NCBI GenBank assembly: GCA_023150835.1
Contig: JAKLKB010000104.1
Coordinates: 1 to 25,088 of the forward strand
Direction of reading: 5' to 3'
DNA from: Myxococcota bacterium
GTDB lineage: Bacteria > Myxococcota_C > UBA6777
DNA: 25,088 nucleotides
Part shown: positions 4,158 to 19,366 of the stretch, one piece after another
Position numbering within the stretch: position 1 is the first letter of the stretch
Layout of the letters: every line of letters begins with the position of its first letter
Notes under the pieces: model-generated
The model's database searches: none
What the model was told of the DNA's origin: nothing
The model's input: the letters and a program-made list of their open reading frames with translations, nothing else
Translations under genes and position numbers: made by a program

Positions 4158-5519
4158 ATGGGATCAGTTTGGAAGCCAGAACTCTTGGCTCCTGCGAAGA
4201 ACTTAGAGCGATTGAAGGTAGCAGTGCGCTACGGCGCGGATGCTGTTTATCTTGGCGGACAGCGCTATGGATTGCGTGCGCGGGCAGACAACTTTACAGA
4301 AGCCGAGATCGCGCAAGGCGTTGAATATGCCCATCAACACGGCGTCAAGGTCTATGTCACGCTGAATGCCTTCTTGCATGACGAAGACTTTGTAGGCTTT
4401 GAAGACTTTTGCCGCTTTTTGTCCTCGATCCAGACGGATGCCGTGATCGTTTCGGATATCGGAGTGATCCAGCGGATCAAGCAGTGTTGCGATCTTTCGA
4501 TCCATCTCTCGACGCAAGCTTCCTGCCTCAATCAATACGCCGCCCAAGTCTGGAAGTCGTTGGGCGTGGAGCGTTTGGTGGTAGGTCGCGAAGTCAGCGT
4601 CGAAGAAGCTGGAGCGATCGGACAAGCCGCCGAGATCGAGATCGAGATGTTTGTGCATGGTGCGATGTGTATGGCGTATTCGGGCCACTGCACGATCTCC
4701 AACTTTACAGCAGGACGTGACTCGAACCGTGGGGGATGTCTGCAATCTTGCCGCTTTCCCTACAAGATCGAAGCCGCCCCCTCCGCCCAAACCACCGATG
4801 CCCAAAGCCTCCGCATCCGCGAAGGACTCCCCGTCGCCTCGTTTATGTCCTCCAAAGATCTCCTCGGCATCGAGCAGATCAAAGCCTTTTTTGTGCAGCG
4901 CATCTGCTCTCTCAAGATCGAAGGCCGGATGAAGTCTTCGTTTTATGTTGCGACCACCTGCAAGGTCTATCGACAACTGATCGATGCCTATGCTGCGGGA
5001 GAATGGAGTCCTGCCTTGCTCGTCGAAGCACGCAGCGAACTCGAAGCGATCCCACACCGCACCTACACCTCGGGCTCCTTGAAAGAAGCCGCTGGCGAAG
5101 ACTCCGTTTATGCCCCATCCACCGAGCAAAATGACGAAACACACCGTTATATCGGGATGGTGCTCGAAAACACGCCTGCCCACTACATCGTGCGCCTCTC
5201 TACCCCCCTTGCTGTGGGCGATATCATCGAGTGGATGCCCTTTGCGAAACCGCCGATTCCTTGGCGTGTTCCACAGCTTTTTACGGTCCTTGGCGAGCCT
5301 TGCGCTTCGATGCGTCAAGACAGCGTCGTCTGCATCCCGAAAGATCCCTCCCTAGGGCATATCGAACGCCTGACGATCCTCCGCATACCACAGCCCTCCT
5401 CTCCCCAACACATCGACACCAACGCCGACAACGTAGATATCCTACAGACCGCAGAGACCCTACACCCCGCAGATATCGCAGACTCGGAGGGTTCCGAGTT
5501 TTCCGACAACGCAAGGTAA
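4158..5519 (+). CDS. trhP: Peptidase U32 family protein, TrhP (YegQ)-like tRNA hydroxylation protein
   Basis: A 453-residue U32-family protein; E. coli TrhP, from memory, has about the same length. TrhP takes part in 5-hydroxyuridine formation at the tRNA wobble position using prephenate; the 'peptidase' label is historical. Motifs seen are ELLAPAKN (8-15), a TIM-barrel-like start with GADAVYLGG (27-35), MFVHGAMCMAYSGHC (164-178) and RGGCLQSCRF (191-200), giving four cysteines (171, 178, 194, 198) in the usual iron-sulfur pattern. SSKDL and SLKIEGRMKS follow. The start is the first ATG in frame with the U32 N-terminus; its ribosome-binding site is weak (GAG four bases before, or AAAGGA about 15 before). 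A second U32 protein follows after five bases. The symbol is by family resemblance; other U32 members (RlhA, UbiU) are alternatives. Confidence 0.85.
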   Translation: MGSVWKPELLAPAKNLERLKVAVRYGADAVYLGGQRYGLRARADNFTEAEIAQGVEYAHQHGVKVYVTLNAFLHDEDFVGFEDFCRFLSSIQTDAVIVSDIGVIQRIKQCCDLSIHLSTQASCLNQYAAQVWKSLGVERLVVGREVSVEEAGAIGQAAEIEIEMFVHGAMCMAYSGHCTISNFTAGRDSNRGGCLQSCRFPYKIEAAPSAQTTDAQSLRIREGLPVASFMSSKDLLGIEQIKAFFVQRICSLKIEGRMKSSFYVATTCKVYRQLIDAYAAGEWSPALLVEARSELEAIPHRTYTSGSLKEAAGEDSVYAPSTEQNDETHRYIGMVLENTPAHYIVRLSTPLAVGDIIEWMPFAKPPIPWRVPQLFTVLGEPCASMRQDSVVCIPKDPSLGHIERLTILRIPQPSSPQHIDTNADNVDILQTAETLHPADIADSEGSEFSDNAR

Positions 5520-5524
5520 CCGAG

Positions 5525-6949
5525 ATGTCATCGACGCCATCGCGATTTGTGGCTTATGCCGCCTCCGAAGAAGAGATCGAGCGCTGCGCCCGCACCGCAA
5601 AGATCGGCGAGATCCTCTTGGAGCCTGAGTGGCTTGCTTGCCAAGGAACCCTCTCTGCGGAGCGATGTGTGGATCTAGCGCGATCGGCGCGTTCGCATGG
5701 ACTCCGCCCTGTGCTGGTGTGGGATATCTTGCTGCCTGAGCGTGTCATGCAAAGCTTACAGCCATCGCTGTCTTCGTGGGCATGGGAAGAATTCGCCGCT
5801 GTTCGGGTCTGCGATATCGGAGCAGCTCAATGGCTGCGTATCCACCGACCTCAGATGCCCCTTCAATTGATCGTAGAGACGGGGAATCACAACGAAGACG
5901 CCTTGCGCGCTTGGTGCGCGGTGTTTGCTCCTGCGCTCGAACGGCTGATCCTTTCGATCGAGATCCCCGAAGAACGACTGATCGCCTATGCGCGTGAATC
6001 TGCCGTTGATTGCGAAGTGATGGGAGTGGGCCGTATCCTGCTTTTTTATTCGCCGCGTTCTTTGCTTGCGCCGAAGCTGCTCACGGGTTCCTCTCTCCAA
6101 TCGAGCGATGCAGCGGGCCAATCAAGCGATGCAGCGGGCCAACCAAGCGATGCAGTGGGCCAATCGAACGATGCAGCGGGCCAACCAAGCGATGCAGCGG
6201 ACCAATCGAGCGATGCAGCGGGCCAATCAAGCGATGCAGCGGGCCAATCAAGCGATGCAGCGGACCAATCGAGCGATGCAGCGGGCCACAAAGCAGCGCC
6301 TGTTCGCCTTGAAGCGATCTCAGGTTCGGATCTGTCGGGGTATCGGCCTTTGCCTGTGTTGGAAACAGCCCACGGAACATTTCTGTATCTCGACAAAGAT
6401 CAATTCATCCTCGACCGTCTTTCGGGCTTATTGGATGCAGGATTATGGATACGCCTCGATCTGCGCCATCTGCGCGATCACTCGGCATCTATCGCCCAGA
6501 TCGACGGTTTGGTGGAGGCGATGCAACACGACGCGACAGCACTTCGCCAAGCATGGCCGCGCCCCACACGTGCGCCCTTTTTCAAGAACAACAAGACCAC
6601 CGCACAATTCACGCGATTGAAGGCCAACCACCACGAACAACGAGACGAATACACCCTTGCAGAGGTCGTCGGTGTCGAGAGGCGTCGTTATGTGGTACTT
6701 TGCGCCTTGCGCCCCTTTTCTACGGAGATGCTTTACGCTTTACTCCTGCCGTCGGGTGAGGAGATCCTCTTGACGGACATCCCGATCTTCCACGATCTGC
6801 AAGGCGTCCCTCGCAACCAATGGATGACCGATCAACTCTTGATCACAGAGCGTATTCGGATGGCCTGTCCCGGAGCGCTCTTGCGAGGCCGCAGCAAAGA
6901 GGAAACCACTTCGATCCCAGAGGAGTCGCCCATTTGCCCCACTGCGTAA
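5525..6949 (+). CDS. Divergent U32-family paralog without cluster cysteines
   Basis: A 474-residue protein encoded five bases after the TrhP-like gene. The N-terminal ~185 residues and the segment after the repeat (FLYLDKDQFILDRL, LDAGLWIRLDLRHL) resemble the barrel and central motifs of U32 proteins such as UbiV. Where U32 proteins carry the first cluster cysteine, this one reads FYSPRSLL (174-181) with Ser. No Cys quartet follows; instead residues 192-254 are nine tandem copies of QSSDAAG-type heptads. The C-terminal ~100 residues (EYTLAEVVGVERRRYVVL) resemble a beta-barrel C-domain. It may partner the upstream protein, as UbiU and UbiV pair in E. coli, or be a scaffold; both are inference. 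The ATG at 5525 is chosen for its position directly after the previous stop and the U32-like start. Confidence 0.7.
   Translation: MSSTPSRFVAYAASEEEIERCARTAKIGEILLEPEWLACQGTLSAERCVDLARSARSHGLRPVLVWDILLPERVMQSLQPSLSSWAWEEFAAVRVCDIGAAQWLRIHRPQMPLQLIVETGNHNEDALRAWCAVFAPALERLILSIEIPEERLIAYARESAVDCEVMGVGRILLFYSPRSLLAPKLLTGSSLQSSDAAGQSSDAAGQPSDAVGQSNDAAGQPSDAADQSSDAAGQSSDAAGQSSDAADQSSDAAGHKAAPVRLEAISGSDLSGYRPLPVLETAHGTFLYLDKDQFILDRLSGLLDAGLWIRLDLRHLRDHSASIAQIDGLVEAMQHDATALRQAWPRPTRAPFFKNNKTTAQFTRLKANHHEQRDEYTLAEVVGVERRRYVVLCALRPFSTEMLYALLLPSGEEILLTDIPIFHDLQGVPRNQWMTDQLLITERIRMACPGALLRGRSKEETTSIPEESPICPTA
6098..6286 (+). repeat. Nine 21-base in-frame repeats
   Basis: Nine units of exactly 21 bases, consensus CAATCGAGCGATGCAGCGGG plus C, encode Gln-Ser-Ser-Asp-Ala-Ala-Gly with substitutions (Pro for Ser2, Asn for Ser3, Val for Ala6, Asp for Gly7). 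The units are nearly identical, so the array is young or homogenised and probably varies in copy number between strains. Confidence 0.95.
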
Positions 6950-10604: not shown

Positions 10605-11015
10605 TCAACGGCGTAGCGGTCGGCAGATCCAACGCCAACACCGTCGGCCCCGATAAGCATAGCTGACACGAACACGCTTGCTCCCGCGACCGCAAGACAA
10701 CGACTGCACAGACGGACAAAACGCACGCAACGGCGGCGGACAAGACCAACGATGACAAGTCTGGCCTTGGTGTGAATAAGTGACACGAAAAGCAGAACGC
10801 CCCCCCGCACACGATGGGCGAGACAACACAGGGCAAGGAAGACGGCGGCAGATCCACCGCCGACAGATCTGGCCTTGAATCCGAAAACTCTCTTGGATCG
10901 GGCTGAATCCAACACGGCAGACAGGGCGGCGAGCCACAGGACAGCGCGCCTCTGCCTGCACAGAAGCGAACCACACGCCCAACCATCCGATCAGTCCAAT
11001 CCTCCAAGCCCACAT
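10605..11015 (-). CDS. Small secreted Arg-rich protein with three identical-spacing Cys modules
   Basis: A 136-residue protein, not recognised. MWAWRIGLIGWLGVWFASVQAEA-type residues 1-23 form a signal peptide with a likely cut after AEA, although they contain four Trp. The mature part is three 32-residue modules with exactly the same spacing: C25/C33/C51/C56, C61/C69/C87/C92 and C100/C108/C126/C131, i.e. C-P-x6-C-x17-C-x-R-W-x-C. A Gly before the third Cys and an aromatic/hydrophobic strand (FRI, FRVTY, VRVSY) are also conserved. The module is strongly basic. The start at 11015 has GGAGG nine bases upstream. Overlapping ORFs in other frames lack such order. It follows the membrane protein gene by 172 bases on the same strand. 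The fold is loosely reminiscent of small disulfide-rich inhibitor or toxin-type domains, but that is only an impression. Confidence 0.75.
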   Translation of the reverse strand: MWAWRIGLIGWLGVWFASVQAEARCPVARRPVCRVGFSPIQESFRIQGQICRRWICRRLPCPVLSRPSCAGGRSAFRVTYSHQGQTCHRWSCPPPLRAFCPSVQSLSCGRGSKRVRVSYAYRGRRCWRWICRPLRR

Positions 11016-11187
11016 CGCCTTTTGCCTCCGCTCCTTGCTTTCTCTTCTGTGTTGTTTCCCAACGTTGTGATCTGGCACACAACTGCGAATGCCCCTTTGG
11101 ACGCCTCCCCCCTCGTTTTCCATTCAAAAAAATCTCCACCGCTCTCTCCCCCGCAGAGACGGCCCGCGCAGAGGCAGGAAAAAAAGA

Positions 11188-12423
11188 TCATCCCAACCCC
11201 AGATAGCGCCGAAGCGACGGGTTGCGCGGAGTGGCTTTCCACAAAAAGCCGTCGAGAAAGTAATGCGTGGCTTGAGGGATGGTCAAAAACGCGATCCAAA
11301 AAGCCCGCCAAGCGGGTTCTTTGACCGCAGCGATCGGATATCGCAAAAAAAACCCGTAAAATGCGGCATGATCACGCCCATGCACCAACAGATCCCAAAA
11401 GTATTCTTCCCAAAACGAAAACAACAACACAGGGACCACAAACAACGCCACGGAAAACACCCGCCGCGTCAAATAAGGCCGCCACACCGCCCACGCCAGA
11501 CGCTTGGCGCGTTCTTCGTCACGCCACGCATTTTCCGTGTACATGTACACCAAGCCGTAGTATGGGATGCCATGCGCCACCACGTTCGTCAGCGCAAACG
11601 CAAACGGCGAATCCAAATGCACGATCCCAAGATACCAGTTCACATAAGTGCCTGTGACCCATAAGATCTTGCCCCACGCCAACCCCACGTCGTAGCGCTT
11701 TGCGGTGTACACATGCAAGCCCACCCATCCCACCACCGAACCCACCCATACACCCACCACAAGCCACACCAACACGTCATACACGCTCCAGCCCCACCCC
11801 ACCGAGCGCAGACGTTGCGTGTACATCAACCAAGAAACAAAGTCCCCTTGTGCAAACCAACTGATCTTTCGCGGAAGATGCGTGTGCCAATAAAGGATCG
11901 GAAGCCCTGTGGCGATGTAGATGCAGACCCGATCCCAAAAGCGTACACGCCCCAACCACGCCTTGCGCTGCGTGCGTTCTGCCTCGCCCACACCGCGCAA
12001 CAACACACCGCTCAGGCGGCCATGATACAACGCCGTAATCCCCACCTGCTGCTTGATAAAATGGTACAACGCAAAATACGCAAGTACCCGCCAAAACAAC
12101 GCAGTCGAGATGTACGCAAGCAACCACGCCACCACAAAAGACAACAGCGGGAACCCCCACAACAGATCGCGATTGCGCGCCCGATGCTCTGGATCAAAGT
12201 AGGTCCGAAACACCGTCGCCCACACATGTCCCACGTCGATCAACAACACGATCAGCACCCACCCCCAAATCGGCATCTTCGCGTACATCAACGACGAAGG
12301 CAAACAAAACACCACCCCCCAACAAAACCAGATCGGAACGTGAAAAAACCCCAGATCAAACCCCCGCCCACCAAACCACAGATCCCCGCCCTCCCGCTCG
12401 TTGGACTGCTTCACCTCGCTCAT
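11188..12423 (-). CDS. Polytopic membrane protein, Trp- and His-rich, unknown function
   Basis: A 411-residue integral membrane protein with roughly 8-10 hydrophobic segments (for example about 29-47, 51-68, 91-125, 190-205, 240-262, 274-290, 345-360). His residues sit in or beside the segments: IDVGHVW (62-68), LYHFIKQQVG (119-128), NVVAHGIPYYG and, near the end, QATHYFLDGFLWK. The last motif recalls a type seen in uncharacterised bacterial membrane proteins, and the intramembrane His pattern could suit metal, haem or lipid-modifying chemistry. None of this is proven. I chose the ATG at 12423 because GGAGGGAG lies nine bases upstream; a longer TTG start at 12510 has none. It diverges from lipoprotein 1. 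Confidence 0.75.
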   Translation of the reverse strand: MSEVKQSNEREGGDLWFGGRGFDLGFFHVPIWFCWGVVFCLPSSLMYAKMPIWGWVLIVLLIDVGHVWATVFRTYFDPEHRARNRDLLWGFPLLSFVVAWLLAYISTALFWRVLAYFALYHFIKQQVGITALYHGRLSGVLLRGVGEAERTQRKAWLGRVRFWDRVCIYIATGLPILYWHTHLPRKISWFAQGDFVSWLMYTQRLRSVGWGWSVYDVLVWLVVGVWVGSVVGWVGLHVYTAKRYDVGLAWGKILWVTGTYVNWYLGIVHLDSPFAFALTNVVAHGIPYYGLVYMYTENAWRDEERAKRLAWAVWRPYLTRRVFSVALFVVPVLLFSFWEEYFWDLLVHGRDHAAFYGFFLRYPIAAVKEPAWRAFWIAFLTIPQATHYFLDGFLWKATPRNPSLRRYLGLG

Positions 12424-12832
12424 CCACCAACACTCCCTCCAATACAGCAGAACGTGCCCGATGATAGGGACTTTCCATACCATAGCAAACGCCAACCTTT
12501 GGCTCTTCAACAGACACCCACCCTAGCAAGCCGCCCACGCCCCTGTCAACCAAACTGCATTGGGCGGATAGGGGCGTACCATGCTCTCAAGACACCCACG
12601 CCCGAATCAAACAACTCCCTACCGCTCGCCCGAATCACCCCCCCACGACCCATCGCCTCCAACACCATCGCCCACACCACCCGCCTCTTCCTTCCCCGAA
12701 CACCTCGAATAAAAAAAACCAAGACAACACAACACCTCCCAAGGTCTTCTCTACGACCAAAACACTTGGACGAAAAAACGTCGCCCAAGCCATCCAGCCA
12801 CAAACGATCCAACCCGAAGTGGGGCGCTTCCC
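12424..12832. other. 409-base divergent intergenic region
   Basis: This gap separates the membrane protein gene from lipoprotein 1 and should hold both promoters. The plus strand is notably G-poor and C/A-rich, with an A8 tract near 12712. I see no clear -35/-10 pair, operator or RNA structure. The long minus-strand ORF across it and into lipoprotein 1 is an Arg/Trp-rich shadow. Confidence 0.5.
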
Positions 12833-15292: not shown

Positions 15293-18200
15293 ATGCACAC
15301 AACACCGCAACGATACCTGCCGCTCGGGTGCCTGATGGCCCTGTGGATCGGCCTTTGGGCTTGCGCCCCCACCGTCCCTAGCCAGCAAAGCTGCCAAGAA
15401 GATCGCGACTGCTCGGCAGGTTACGCTTGTGTCTTTGGCGCGTGCTCTAGCCTTAGCAGCGAAAGTGGACGCGAAAACATCGCACAGATCAGCGACGCCA
15501 ACACCCATCAACCCGATATCCCTCAAGAACCTCCCTGCCGCGAAAGCGACACCCGCCCCTGCTTCCCCCGCAACCAAAAAGGCTGCACCTCCTCGCAAGG
15601 CTCCTTTTCATGCACCCAACCTTGCAGCACAGGCACACAGACCTGTAGCAACGGCCTTTGGGGTGAGTGCATCGGAGCTATCGTCCCCGCCCCCGAAGAA
15701 TGCAACGGCAAAGATGACGATTGCGACGGACAGATCGACAACAACCTCACCCCGCCGCTTTGCGCCAAACAAAGTGGCCTCTGCAAAGGCTCCACCAAGC
15801 AGATCTGCGACGGCAAAAACGGCTGGAAAGAATGCGATCGAGCCGCTTATACCAAACACCATGACGCCTATGAGCCCTCTGAAACCCGATGCGACGGCCT
15901 CGACAACGACTGCGACGGGCAAGCCGACAACAACCTTCCACCCAAACTCTGCGACAAGCAAAGCGGCGTCTGCAACGGCACCAAAGCCACCTGCGGGGGC
16001 AAAAACGGCTGGAAGCCTTGTGATGATGCCCACTACAAAAACCAAGCCCCCAAATACTCGGACAAAGAAGAATGCGACGGACTCGACAACAACTGCGACG
16101 GCAACATCGACGAAGGTTGTTCCTGCGTCGATGGCCAAACACAGCCCTGTTTCCCCGGAAATGTCGGATGCAAAAAAGACGCTGACAACGGCACTTACCA
16201 ATGCGACGGCCCATGCAAAACAGGCACACAAACATGCAGCGGCGGAAAATGGGGAAGTTGTGAGGGCGCAAGCATCGGAAAACCCGAAGAATGCAACGGC
16301 ATCGACGACGATTGCGATGGACAGATCGATAACGGCCTCACCGCTCCCCCTTGCGAAAATCAAAAAGGCGTCTGCAACGGTTCCAAAAAGATTTGTGATG
16401 GCAAAAATGGTTGGAAGGCATGCGATCAAACCGACTACACCAAACACAGCACCGACTATGAGATCAAAGAAACCAAGTGCGATGGACTCGACAACGACTG
16501 CGACGAAAACATCGACAACGGCTTGACTGCCCCCGTATGCACCAACCAAAAAGGCGTCTGCAAGGACTCCGTACAGACCTGTAAAGGCACAGACGGCTGG
16601 AAGGATTGCGATCACGCTGCTTATGCCTCGCAGAACAAGGCTTACGAGATCAACGAAACCCGATGTGACGGTCTCGACAACGACTGCGACGGCAATGTCG
16701 ACAACGGCCTCACTCCACCCACATGCACCAAACAAAACGGCGTCTGCAACGGCTCCAAACAGACCTGCGACGGTGTAAAGGGATGGACAGATTGCAACAC
16801 CGCAGCTTATACCGCACACAACGCTGACTACGAGGAAACCGAAACCAAGTGCGACGGCAAGGACAACGACTGCGACGGTAGCACCGACAAACATTGTGAC
16901 TGTCAACTCGGGCAAACTCGCGAGTGTTTCGGCGGTTCCAACGGATGCACACCCGATCCAAGCGGTGTCGGCTCCTACAAATGCAATCCGCCCTGCCAAG
17001 CCGGCAAGCAACAGTGCGTTGCCGGAAAATGGGGCGACTGCACAGGCGATGTCCGCGAAGCCAAGGAGATCTGCGACGGCATCGACAACGATTGCGATGG
17101 CAAGGTCGACAACAACCTGACCCCCGTCCCTTGCGACAAACAAGATGGCGTTTGCCAAGGCTCCACCAAGATCTGCGACAGCCTACAAAAAAAATGGCTT
17201 GACTGCGATGATGCCCGATACAAGGCATACAACACCGCCTACGAAGCCACCGAAACCCTGTGCGATGGACTCGACAACAACTGCGACGGCAAGGTCGACA
17301 ACAACCTCCCCACCAACCCCTGTTCCAACCAAAAAGGCGTCTGCCTTGGTGCCAACCAAACCTGCAACGGTATCAAAGGATGGAAAGATTGCGAGCCTCG
17401 CGATTATTACGCGCACAACAGCGATTACCAACCCACCGAAACCAAATGCGACAACAAAGACAACGATTGTGACGGTCAAATCGACGAAAACATCAAGCGA
17501 AACACCTACCCCTCCGATACCCGAGGATGCACCCTCGACCCAAACACCCAACAATACAAGTGCGAGGGCATCTGCCAACCCGGGATGTCCGTTTGCAAAG
17601 CTGGGCAGTGGCAACAAGAAACCCCCGCCATCACCCCCCAAAAAGAGTTCATGCTCTGTACCGATGGCAAAGACAACGATTGCGACGGCAAGATCGACTA
17701 CAGCGATCTTCGCGCTTACAACGCCTCCGCCTCCGACGAACGCGACAACTGCGTGTCCACCTATTCTTTGATCAAGCATGACTCCAACGGACAAATCGAA
17801 GGCCGTCTCCTGATCAAAGATATCGTCAGCAATGCCTCCGAAGGGCGGGGCGATCTCTATCTGTTGGGCGAGATCACAGGCACTTATGGCTATGTCACCA
17901 CCAGCGGCCAAGGTGCCAGCATCGCAAGCCCCAACGGCATCTTGGGCTTTGTCATGAAAGTGACGCCTGAATTCCGCGTCCATTGGGCCTTTACCTTCAG
18001 TATGCCTCTCCCGTTCCCATTGAGCGGCTCCGCCCAACCCCAACGCCTTGCCTACGCAAACAACAAGCTCTACATCACAGGCAGCTTCCAAGGCACCATC
18101 CGCCTCCAAACGGGCCCCCTCTCCCCAACCAACACAAAATATGAATCCCTCACGGCGGGCTTCACAAACCGAAGCGCCGCTTTTGTTTGGGCGATCCAAG

Positions 18201-19366
18201 ATGCCGTAAGCCAACCCGCGACTGGATTGTGGGCCGCCAAGATCGATTACGGCGACACCACCGCCCACAGCATCGTCGCAAACCAAGGCGCGGTGTATGT
18301 CGGGGGAAAGAGTACGCCCGATTTCAGTATCTCGCCTACCGGCGAAACCTCCGGCAACGACCCCTTTATCGCTGTCCTCTCCGCCGTTGATGGTGCGATC
18401 AAAGGCAGGAAATTCTTCAAAACCATCGCCGCAGGCACGGCTGACCTCAACGACCGCATCTGGCAAATGGCGCTGTTTAACGGTGACCTTGTGGCTGTGG
18501 GGACATTTTCAGGAGACTACGAGAAGGACACCACAAGCAGCATCACGAGTACGGGCGGGCGTGATGCCTTTTTGGTTCGACTGTCTCTCGACCTCAAAAC
18601 CATCCATTGGTTCAAGCGCATCCATTCCGCCGAGGACGACACCCCCACCGCACTCCACGTCGAAGGCAGCGATATCTACGTTGCGGGTACTTCCTCTCTC
18701 AACGCGAGCGCCTCCTTCTACAAGATCACTTTCGAGGGCGGCGCGTCTTCGGACTTGTTCGGACGCAAAACAAGCATATACAACGGATTTATCGCTCGTT
18801 ACAAAGACTTGGGAACGGGTACTCCCAGCCTCCAATGGGCCTATCTCGCCGCGTCCTCTCAAAGGACGGGAAAAGTCGTTCCTACCGCCATCGGGATGCG
18901 CGATGGATTGCTCCATCTCGTCGGTTCTTACCTCGAAGACTTCGGCCTCTATCAAACCTCGACCCTGTACAGCACCACGACCATCCCTGTCCCCATCGCA
19001 GGCTCCACGTTGACTGGCTCAGCCACCCAAGTCGGCCTCTTCGTGTTGCTCCTCGATAGCGCGGGAACTCTCGTCGCTCCCGTCCGTTATCCCGCCCTTT
19101 CACGCACCCCCACCAACCCCATGTCTCTGCACGACACCAACACAGCGAGAGCTCATTGGCTTGCCAATGCCCTTGCCTTCGATGTTTACGGCATGGATTA
19201 TCTCGCGATCGGCTTTGCCTCAACCCAACTCAGCAACTTCGATCTCAATCCTCTCGTCTGGAGCAACTGGAGCCTACGAAGCATCCCCACCCCCGCCACG
19301 CTCTACCAAAAAGGCGCATTTCCCCGAAAATCAGGCGCAATCAGCCCTCCGCTTCCCGTTCCCTGA
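15293..19366 (+). CDS. Lipoprotein 2: eleven MopE-like motifs plus beta-propeller-like domain
   Basis: A 1357-residue putative outer-membrane lipoprotein, the largest gene here. The signal peptide ends at Cys24 in GLWAC, with Ala at +2. A small Cys module (CQEDRDCSAGYACVFGAC) follows. Residues about 82-805 carry eleven CDGxDNDCDGxxDN motifs in an ordered array (listed separately). The last ~530 residues have propeller-like strands: LYLLGEITG, LYITGSFQG, VYVGGKS, LVAVGTFSG, IYVAGTS, LHLVGSY. MopE-like motifs are linked in the literature to metal binding and to surface proteins; the Asp/Asn spacing resembles a Ca2+ loop. The start has GAGGGA six to seven bases upstream. It lies 105 bases after lipoprotein 1, whose architecture is a minimal version, and converges with the SppA gene. 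Confidence 0.88.
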   Translation: MHTTPQRYLPLGCLMALWIGLWACAPTVPSQQSCQEDRDCSAGYACVFGACSSLSSESGRENIAQISDANTHQPDIPQEPPCRESDTRPCFPRNQKGCTSSQGSFSCTQPCSTGTQTCSNGLWGECIGAIVPAPEECNGKDDDCDGQIDNNLTPPLCAKQSGLCKGSTKQICDGKNGWKECDRAAYTKHHDAYEPSETRCDGLDNDCDGQADNNLPPKLCDKQSGVCNGTKATCGGKNGWKPCDDAHYKNQAPKYSDKEECDGLDNNCDGNIDEGCSCVDGQTQPCFPGNVGCKKDADNGTYQCDGPCKTGTQTCSGGKWGSCEGASIGKPEECNGIDDDCDGQIDNGLTAPPCENQKGVCNGSKKICDGKNGWKACDQTDYTKHSTDYEIKETKCDGLDNDCDENIDNGLTAPVCTNQKGVCKDSVQTCKGTDGWKDCDHAAYASQNKAYEINETRCDGLDNDCDGNVDNGLTPPTCTKQNGVCNGSKQTCDGVKGWTDCNTAAYTAHNADYEETETKCDGKDNDCDGSTDKHCDCQLGQTRECFGGSNGCTPDPSGVGSYKCNPPCQAGKQQCVAGKWGDCTGDVREAKEICDGIDNDCDGKVDNNLTPVPCDKQDGVCQGSTKICDSLQKKWLDCDDARYKAYNTAYEATETLCDGLDNNCDGKVDNNLPTNPCSNQKGVCLGANQTCNGIKGWKDCEPRDYYAHNSDYQPTETKCDNKDNDCDGQIDENIKRNTYPSDTRGCTLDPNTQQYKCEGICQPGMSVCKAGQWQQETPAITPQKEFMLCTDGKDNDCDGKIDYSDLRAYNASASDERDNCVSTYSLIKHDSNGQIEGRLLIKDIVSNASEGRGDLYLLGEITGTYGYVTTSGQGASIASPNGILGFVMKVTPEFRVHWAFTFSMPLPFPLSGSAQPQRLAYANNKLYITGSFQGTIRLQTGPLSPTNTKYESLTAGFTNRSAAFVWAIQDAVSQPATGLWAAKIDYGDTTAHSIVANQGAVYVGGKSTPDFSISPTGETSGNDPFIAVLSAVDGAIKGRKFFKTIAAGTADLNDRIWQMALFNGDLVAVGTFSGDYEKDTTSSITSTGGRDAFLVRLSLDLKTIHWFKRIHSAEDDTPTALHVEGSDIYVAGTSSLNASASFYKITFEGGASSDLFGRKTSIYNGFIARYKDLGTGTPSLQWAYLAASSQRTGKVVPTAIGMRDGLLHLVGSYLEDFGLYQTSTLYSTTTIPVPIAGSTLTGSATQVGLFVLLLDSAGTLVAPVRYPALSRTPTNPMSLHDTNTARAHWLANALAFDVYGMDYLAIGFASTQLSNFDLNPLVWSNWSLRSIPTPATLYQKGAFPRKSGAISPPLPVP
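15536..17707 (+). repeat. Ordered Cys/Asp repeat array A-BB-A-BBB-A-BB-A
   Basis: Motifs CDGxDNDCDG begin at 15701, 15890, 16073, 16292, 16478, 16664, 16850, 17072, 17261, 17447 and 17657. Seven B units of 183-189 bases have the pattern GVC-GS-CDG-GWK-CD-Y-YE-ET-CDGLDNDCDG. Four A units are longer (about 210-222 bases) and contain CFPxxxGC, a TGTQTC-type turn and GKWGxC before the motif. The order is A1 15536-15748, B1-B2, A2 16121-16339, B3-B5, A3 16898-17119, B6-B7, A4 17495-17707. The B units before A2 and A3 end in Cys (DEGC, DKHC) instead of DNNL/DNGL, marking supermodule boundaries. Confidence 0.85.

Follow-up and report, generated by a model that had tools for sequence, protein, structure and literature searches.

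In a contig of a Myxococcota bacterium (JAKLKB010000104.1), we identified a gene for a small, putatively secreted protein built of three four-cysteine modules; the whole stretch of DNA analysed, 25,088 nucleotides long, is called the window below. The best explanation is that this gene is a short paralogue of a phylum-conserved envelope protein carrying 20–23 modules. Taken as a whole, the reading we prefer, a secreted paralogue of three disulfide-bonded beads that would bind polyanions, has a probability of roughly 0.45 in our estimate, and we are highly confident in the part of it that treats the repeats as disulfide modules.

The gene lies within a full open frame at 10605-11123 on the minus strand, and the ATG at 11015, nine bases downstream of a GGAGG, is its likely start. 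Its features are given here, with E-values for the modules taken from a family profile that was built with those modules included.
10605..11015, minus strand: gene for the three-module protein, 136 codons plus stop, ATG at 11015 (ORF list, GGAGG, homology at E 5e-18)
11025..11029, minus strand: Shine-Dalgarno-like GGAGG (sequence)
10947..11015, minus strand: predicted Sec signal peptide, MWAWRIGLIGWLGVWFASVQAEA, 23 residues, assigned by eye
10848..10943, minus strand: module 1, CPVARRPVCRVGFSPIQESFRIQGQICRRWIC, exact 7/17/4 spacing, family profile E 1.6e-12, predicted hairpin
10740..10835, minus strand: module 2, CPVLSRPSCAGGRSAFRVTYSHQGQTCHRWSC, exact 7/17/4 spacing, family profile E 3.5e-13, predicted hairpin
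10623..10718, minus strand: module 3, CPSVQSLSCGRGSKRVRVSYAYRGRRCWRWIC, exact 7/17/4 spacing, family profile E 6.4e-12, predicted hairpin

Judged by homology, and not by ORF length or codon usage, this ORF is a real gene, as the first-pass annotation had claimed; we accepted it because its frame matches other genomes at the protein level (E 5e-18). The other two lines of proof were dropped, since a longer frame (216 aa) overlaps this one and codon bias tells nothing either way. If the ORF were open by chance in G+C-rich DNA, open overlapping frames and a lack of codon preference for the three-module frame would also be expected, but the homologous proteins share the same module architecture, which refutes this view and makes it highly improbable. 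The mature protein comprises 113 aa with 12 cysteines and is strongly basic, as had been noted earlier (25 Lys/Arg vs 1 Asp/Glu, pI ~11.6).

The three exact C-x7-C-x17-C-x4-C modules described in the first-pass annotation are all present, and they are the only occurrences of this spacing in six frames of the whole window. When the mature protein was shuffled 400,000 times, three identical spacing triads arose once. All three modules carry the family signature, which consists of a CP start, C-x7-C-x17-C-x4-C, G12, an aromatic residue at position 20, G24 and R/K29; aromatics at positions 20 and 22 are conserved among family modules. Outside the cysteine, glycine, aromatic and arginine positions, the window modules are 30-40% identical to any other module. 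Two details of the earlier description required correction. The conserved glycine exists, but it stands three residues before Cys3 (G-x-x-C), not four. Of the RW placed between the last two cysteines, the basic residue two positions past Cys3 (position 29) is found in 49/52 exact modules, whereas Trp directly after it (position 30) occurs in only 6/52, three of these six being from the window protein. The earlier description had also lacked two conserved features, the glycine in C2-x-x-G and the aromatic seven residues before Cys3.

We searched for this module in known families. Neither Pfam, NCBIfam and PHROGs nor the PDB sequences gave a credible match, Rfam gave none, and we found no papers describing the four-cysteine module; the suggestion of an undescribed domain thus held against these libraries, with no known family to remove its novelty. 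A match to Arm-DNA-bind_2 at E 0.03-0.07 was rejected since it falls below the cut-off of that family and covers 16 residues. Single modules (19) gave a profile too variable to scan the genome collection with, so the long arrays served as the query instead. Modules occurred in four of five genomes from the host's phylum, all five belonging to one family. Outside the phylum, a three-module profile detected no module in 381 genomes; these sample the domain and do not prove absence. An out-of-phylum match in one genome (G057, E 1.1e-4) was rejected because it contains stops. Plasmids and viral contigs held no relatives of the long array.

Three relatives encode intact long exported proteins of 887, 1047 and 1012 aa with 20–23 modules each, in which the spacing is 7-17-4-4 almost without exception, giving a 36-residue period. 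Named relatives are MAGs that carry the labels Deltaproteobacteria (SBHC01000077, PCBK01000137) and Myxococcota (CAUJFU010000204). The N-terminus of one long protein reads LVGC, a lipobox, while the others are less clear. The host genome (G000; 239 contigs, 7.56 Mb) has further modules on two contigs, C8 and C96, in each case at a contig end. The flanks of both ends are syntenic with a single contig of a same-genus relative that has the intact long gene, so the two stretches are very probably one broken gene. Module number varies among relatives, as the first-pass annotation had proposed to check: in addition to the three-module and 20–23-module proteins, a second genus encodes a secreted protein of 224 aa whose five modules are joined by seven-residue linkers, and a 335-aa secreted protein of another genus (G004; L051 4807-5811) has eight modules of a six-cysteine variant, C-x7-C-x7-C-x9-C-x3-C-x-C, which fits the four-cysteine frame with two cysteines added. 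In 4/4 genomes, the long array is immediately preceded by a gene for a PP2C-family phosphatase that has a likely membrane segment. In 3/4 genomes this ORF has a Lys/Arg-rich tail; in the ORFs L053 1843-3210, L054 4286-5614 and L009 1615-2772, the likely membrane segment is followed by a tail of very high Lys/Arg content, which in L053 is nearly all Arg, while the L052 orthologue ends with the membrane segment.

Purifying selection acts on the long array. Between two species of one genus, dN was 0.041 and dS 0.305 (dN/dS 0.13), and 82/82 compared cysteines were kept. Between genera, modules at the same position were more alike (0.33-0.41) than other modules (0.20-0.23); the array is therefore old and not freely reshuffled. 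The claim of selection on the cysteine frame is thereby borne out for the family, and it extends to the window copy by inference, because none of the four relatives has an orthologue of the exact three-module gene. The refuting conditions set in the first-pass annotation did not materialize, with the caveat that conservation in the relatives was seen for the module but not for the exact three-module gene. The downstream neighbour (a 440-aa ORF, 11188-12510) likewise lacks an orthologue there.

We utilized AlphaFold for the structure prediction that had been suggested as a check. The model of the window protein shows one β-hairpin per module with a pLDDT of 92.8, from a 47-row alignment whose effective depth is small, since three proteins supplied many of the rows as overlapping stretches. 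Five modules from a relative also gave one β-hairpin each (pLDDT 90.3), from an alignment of nine rows that was used in place of a 34-row version put out of register by overlapping rows. The pTM values of 0.46-0.51 mean that the models do not predict how the beads are arranged relative to one another. A clue to disulfide pairing comes from a degenerate module present in 4/4 long arrays, which lacks Cys1 and Cys3 and retains Cys2 and Cys4 at normal spacing, so that it appears as a single 22-residue gap equal to Cys2-x17-(Cys3)-x4-Cys4. Because Cys1 and Cys3 were lost together and Cys2 and Cys4 were kept, the most likely pairing is Cys1-Cys3 and Cys2-Cys4; since the four arrays are orthologous, the degenerate module counts as one event, not four.

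Foldseek comparison of the models with the PDB and with viral models gave no match at E <= 0.001. Weak structural matches recurred to the sushi protein CD55 (Z 2.1-2.6, rmsd 6-7 over ~73 residues) and to vWF C4, a VWC domain (Z 2.4-2.8), with NELL2 also recurring, all below significance. Sushi modules begin with Cys-Pro, have C-x-x-G after the second cysteine and place an aromatic before the last cysteine. The module described here shares all three features, and like the sushi domain (CCP or SCR; PF00084; CD55, factor H) it is a small four-cysteine bead repeated along the chain of secreted or anchored proteins. It would also share the 1-3/2-4 pairing, as judged from the one degenerate module in four orthologous arrays. 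However, a sushi module has ~60 residues compared to 32 here (36-residue period), PF00084 gave no match at E up to 1 (47 three-module stretches) or up to 10 (long proteins), Trp is not conserved across our family, and no fold match is significant. VWC or chordin-like domains (PF00093; vWF C4, NELL2) likewise form arrayed extracellular β-hairpins held by disulfides. They contain about ten cysteines with CxxCxC and CCxxC motifs, whereas our module has four at 7/17/4, neither motif and no profile match. We assigned the module to neither family, as length, cysteine number and profile fail in sequence; the four-cysteine module may nevertheless work like sushi or VWC domains.

Resemblance to other cysteine-rich proteins was more distant. 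The six-cysteine paralogue in G004 scored 23.5 bits against Toxin_7 (PF05980; E 6.5e-5), below the curated cut-off of 27, and the window protein, with four cysteines per module, gave no match. MopE-type repeats (PF11617) are also cysteine repeats of exported proteins in the same genome, two such genes lying downstream in the window, but their motif is CDGxDNDCDG and our module has no PF11617 match. A link between the window gene and the MopE genes was dropped: each genome of the phylum has dozens of these repeats, so their proximity carries little weight. In the window, the ORF at 15293-19366 encodes an exported protein of 1357 aa in which eleven MopE-type (PF11617) repeats were found. The window also contains two tandem DNA repeats, a 20-base unit in ~14 copies at the contig end (24666-24951) and a 21-base unit in ~9 copies (6097-6288) that encodes a QSSDAAG-type repeat in the ORF 5231-6949. 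Secreted cysteine-rich repeat proteins (SCREPs; PMC6262176) resemble our proteins in general design, a secreted chain of tandem disulfide-rich domains, but their domains are knot-type and from animal venom.

We propose that the window gene product is exported by Sec as a soluble protein of 113 aa, which would fold into three beads, each a β-hairpin held by two disulfides. The cysteines would be oxidized by the host's DsbA/VKOR system; DsbA-family domains are present, with one VKOR per genome, in four genomes. Given the mean net charge of +3 to +6.6 per module and the aromatics, these hairpins may bind polyanions (extracellular DNA, LPS or acidic exopolysaccharide) within the matrix or on the surface of the cell, and several weak sites in series would provide avidity. 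We hold this role of the module tentatively, at somewhat short of even odds; the membrane, polyanion or protein binding suggested in the first-pass annotation is plausible. Some single ORFs also string together several DsbA-family domains, every one with a CP[FY]C site, as would suit a lineage with many disulfide-bonded exported proteins. Such ORFs have seven CPFC sites in 1426 aa (L088; G000:C128:48500-54700), five CP[FY]C sites in 1084 aa (L089; G000:C40:7800-12000) and eight in 1701 aa (L091; G004:C54:95000-102500), that is, five to eight domains per protein with sites ~190 residues apart; a short literature search found no description of poly-DsbA proteins. In a 605-aa frame (L090; G000:C113:8000-11500), a VKOR domain is fused with two DsbA-type domains.

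The same properties can be read in other ways. If the modules were protein-binding beads, as in a ligand trap, a protease inhibitor or an adhesin, they would act as animal sushi or VWC modules do; the recurrence of CD55 and VWC proteins among the structural matches and the sushi-like 1-3/2-4 pairing point in this direction, and position-specific conservation along the array suggests separate partners for each bead. All of these structural matches are below significance, however, and a general polymer binder could equally have such variable surface positions and so high a charge, so we consider protein binding rather unlikely. The pI of 11.6 would also suit an antibacterial or predation peptide of structural-module origin, whose cationic Trp/Arg-rich hairpins disturb competitor membranes. 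Such a peptide would explain the Trp at position 30 in 3/3 window modules, which is rare in long arrays, as well as a signal peptide without a membrane anchor and the absence from relatives expected of a lineage-specific weapon. Yet the long conserved envelope arrays, which are unlikely to act as weapons, carry the same charge, and no immunity or export partner was seen adjoining the window gene; we therefore regard this function as unlikely.

Absence from relatives, shared with the downstream neighbour, would also be expected if part of the long array had been duplicated in this lineage alone to give the window copy, which would now be dispensable although its frame is still intact. This is improbable: the gene has its own signal peptide, ribosome site and stop, and its modules keep 12/12 cysteines and the conserved Gly, aromatic and Arg while their other positions are 30-40% identical to any module.

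For the family, we lean slightly toward a new disulfide β-hairpin domain confined to one poorly sampled phylum, forming envelope rods of at least 20 beads together with shorter secreted forms, in which a sushi-like design would have been reached independently. This small domain is absent from current family libraries and comes with a confident predicted fold and an evolutionary clue to its pairing. Module counts of 3, 5, 8 and 20–23 offer a clear test set, and the short basic version is compact enough for biochemistry. It is in animal extracellular proteins that long rods of disulfide-bonded beads are typically found; for studying how bacteria fold heavily disulfide-bonded surface proteins, a lineage with such rods and with proteins of tandem DsbA-type domains would be a good system.
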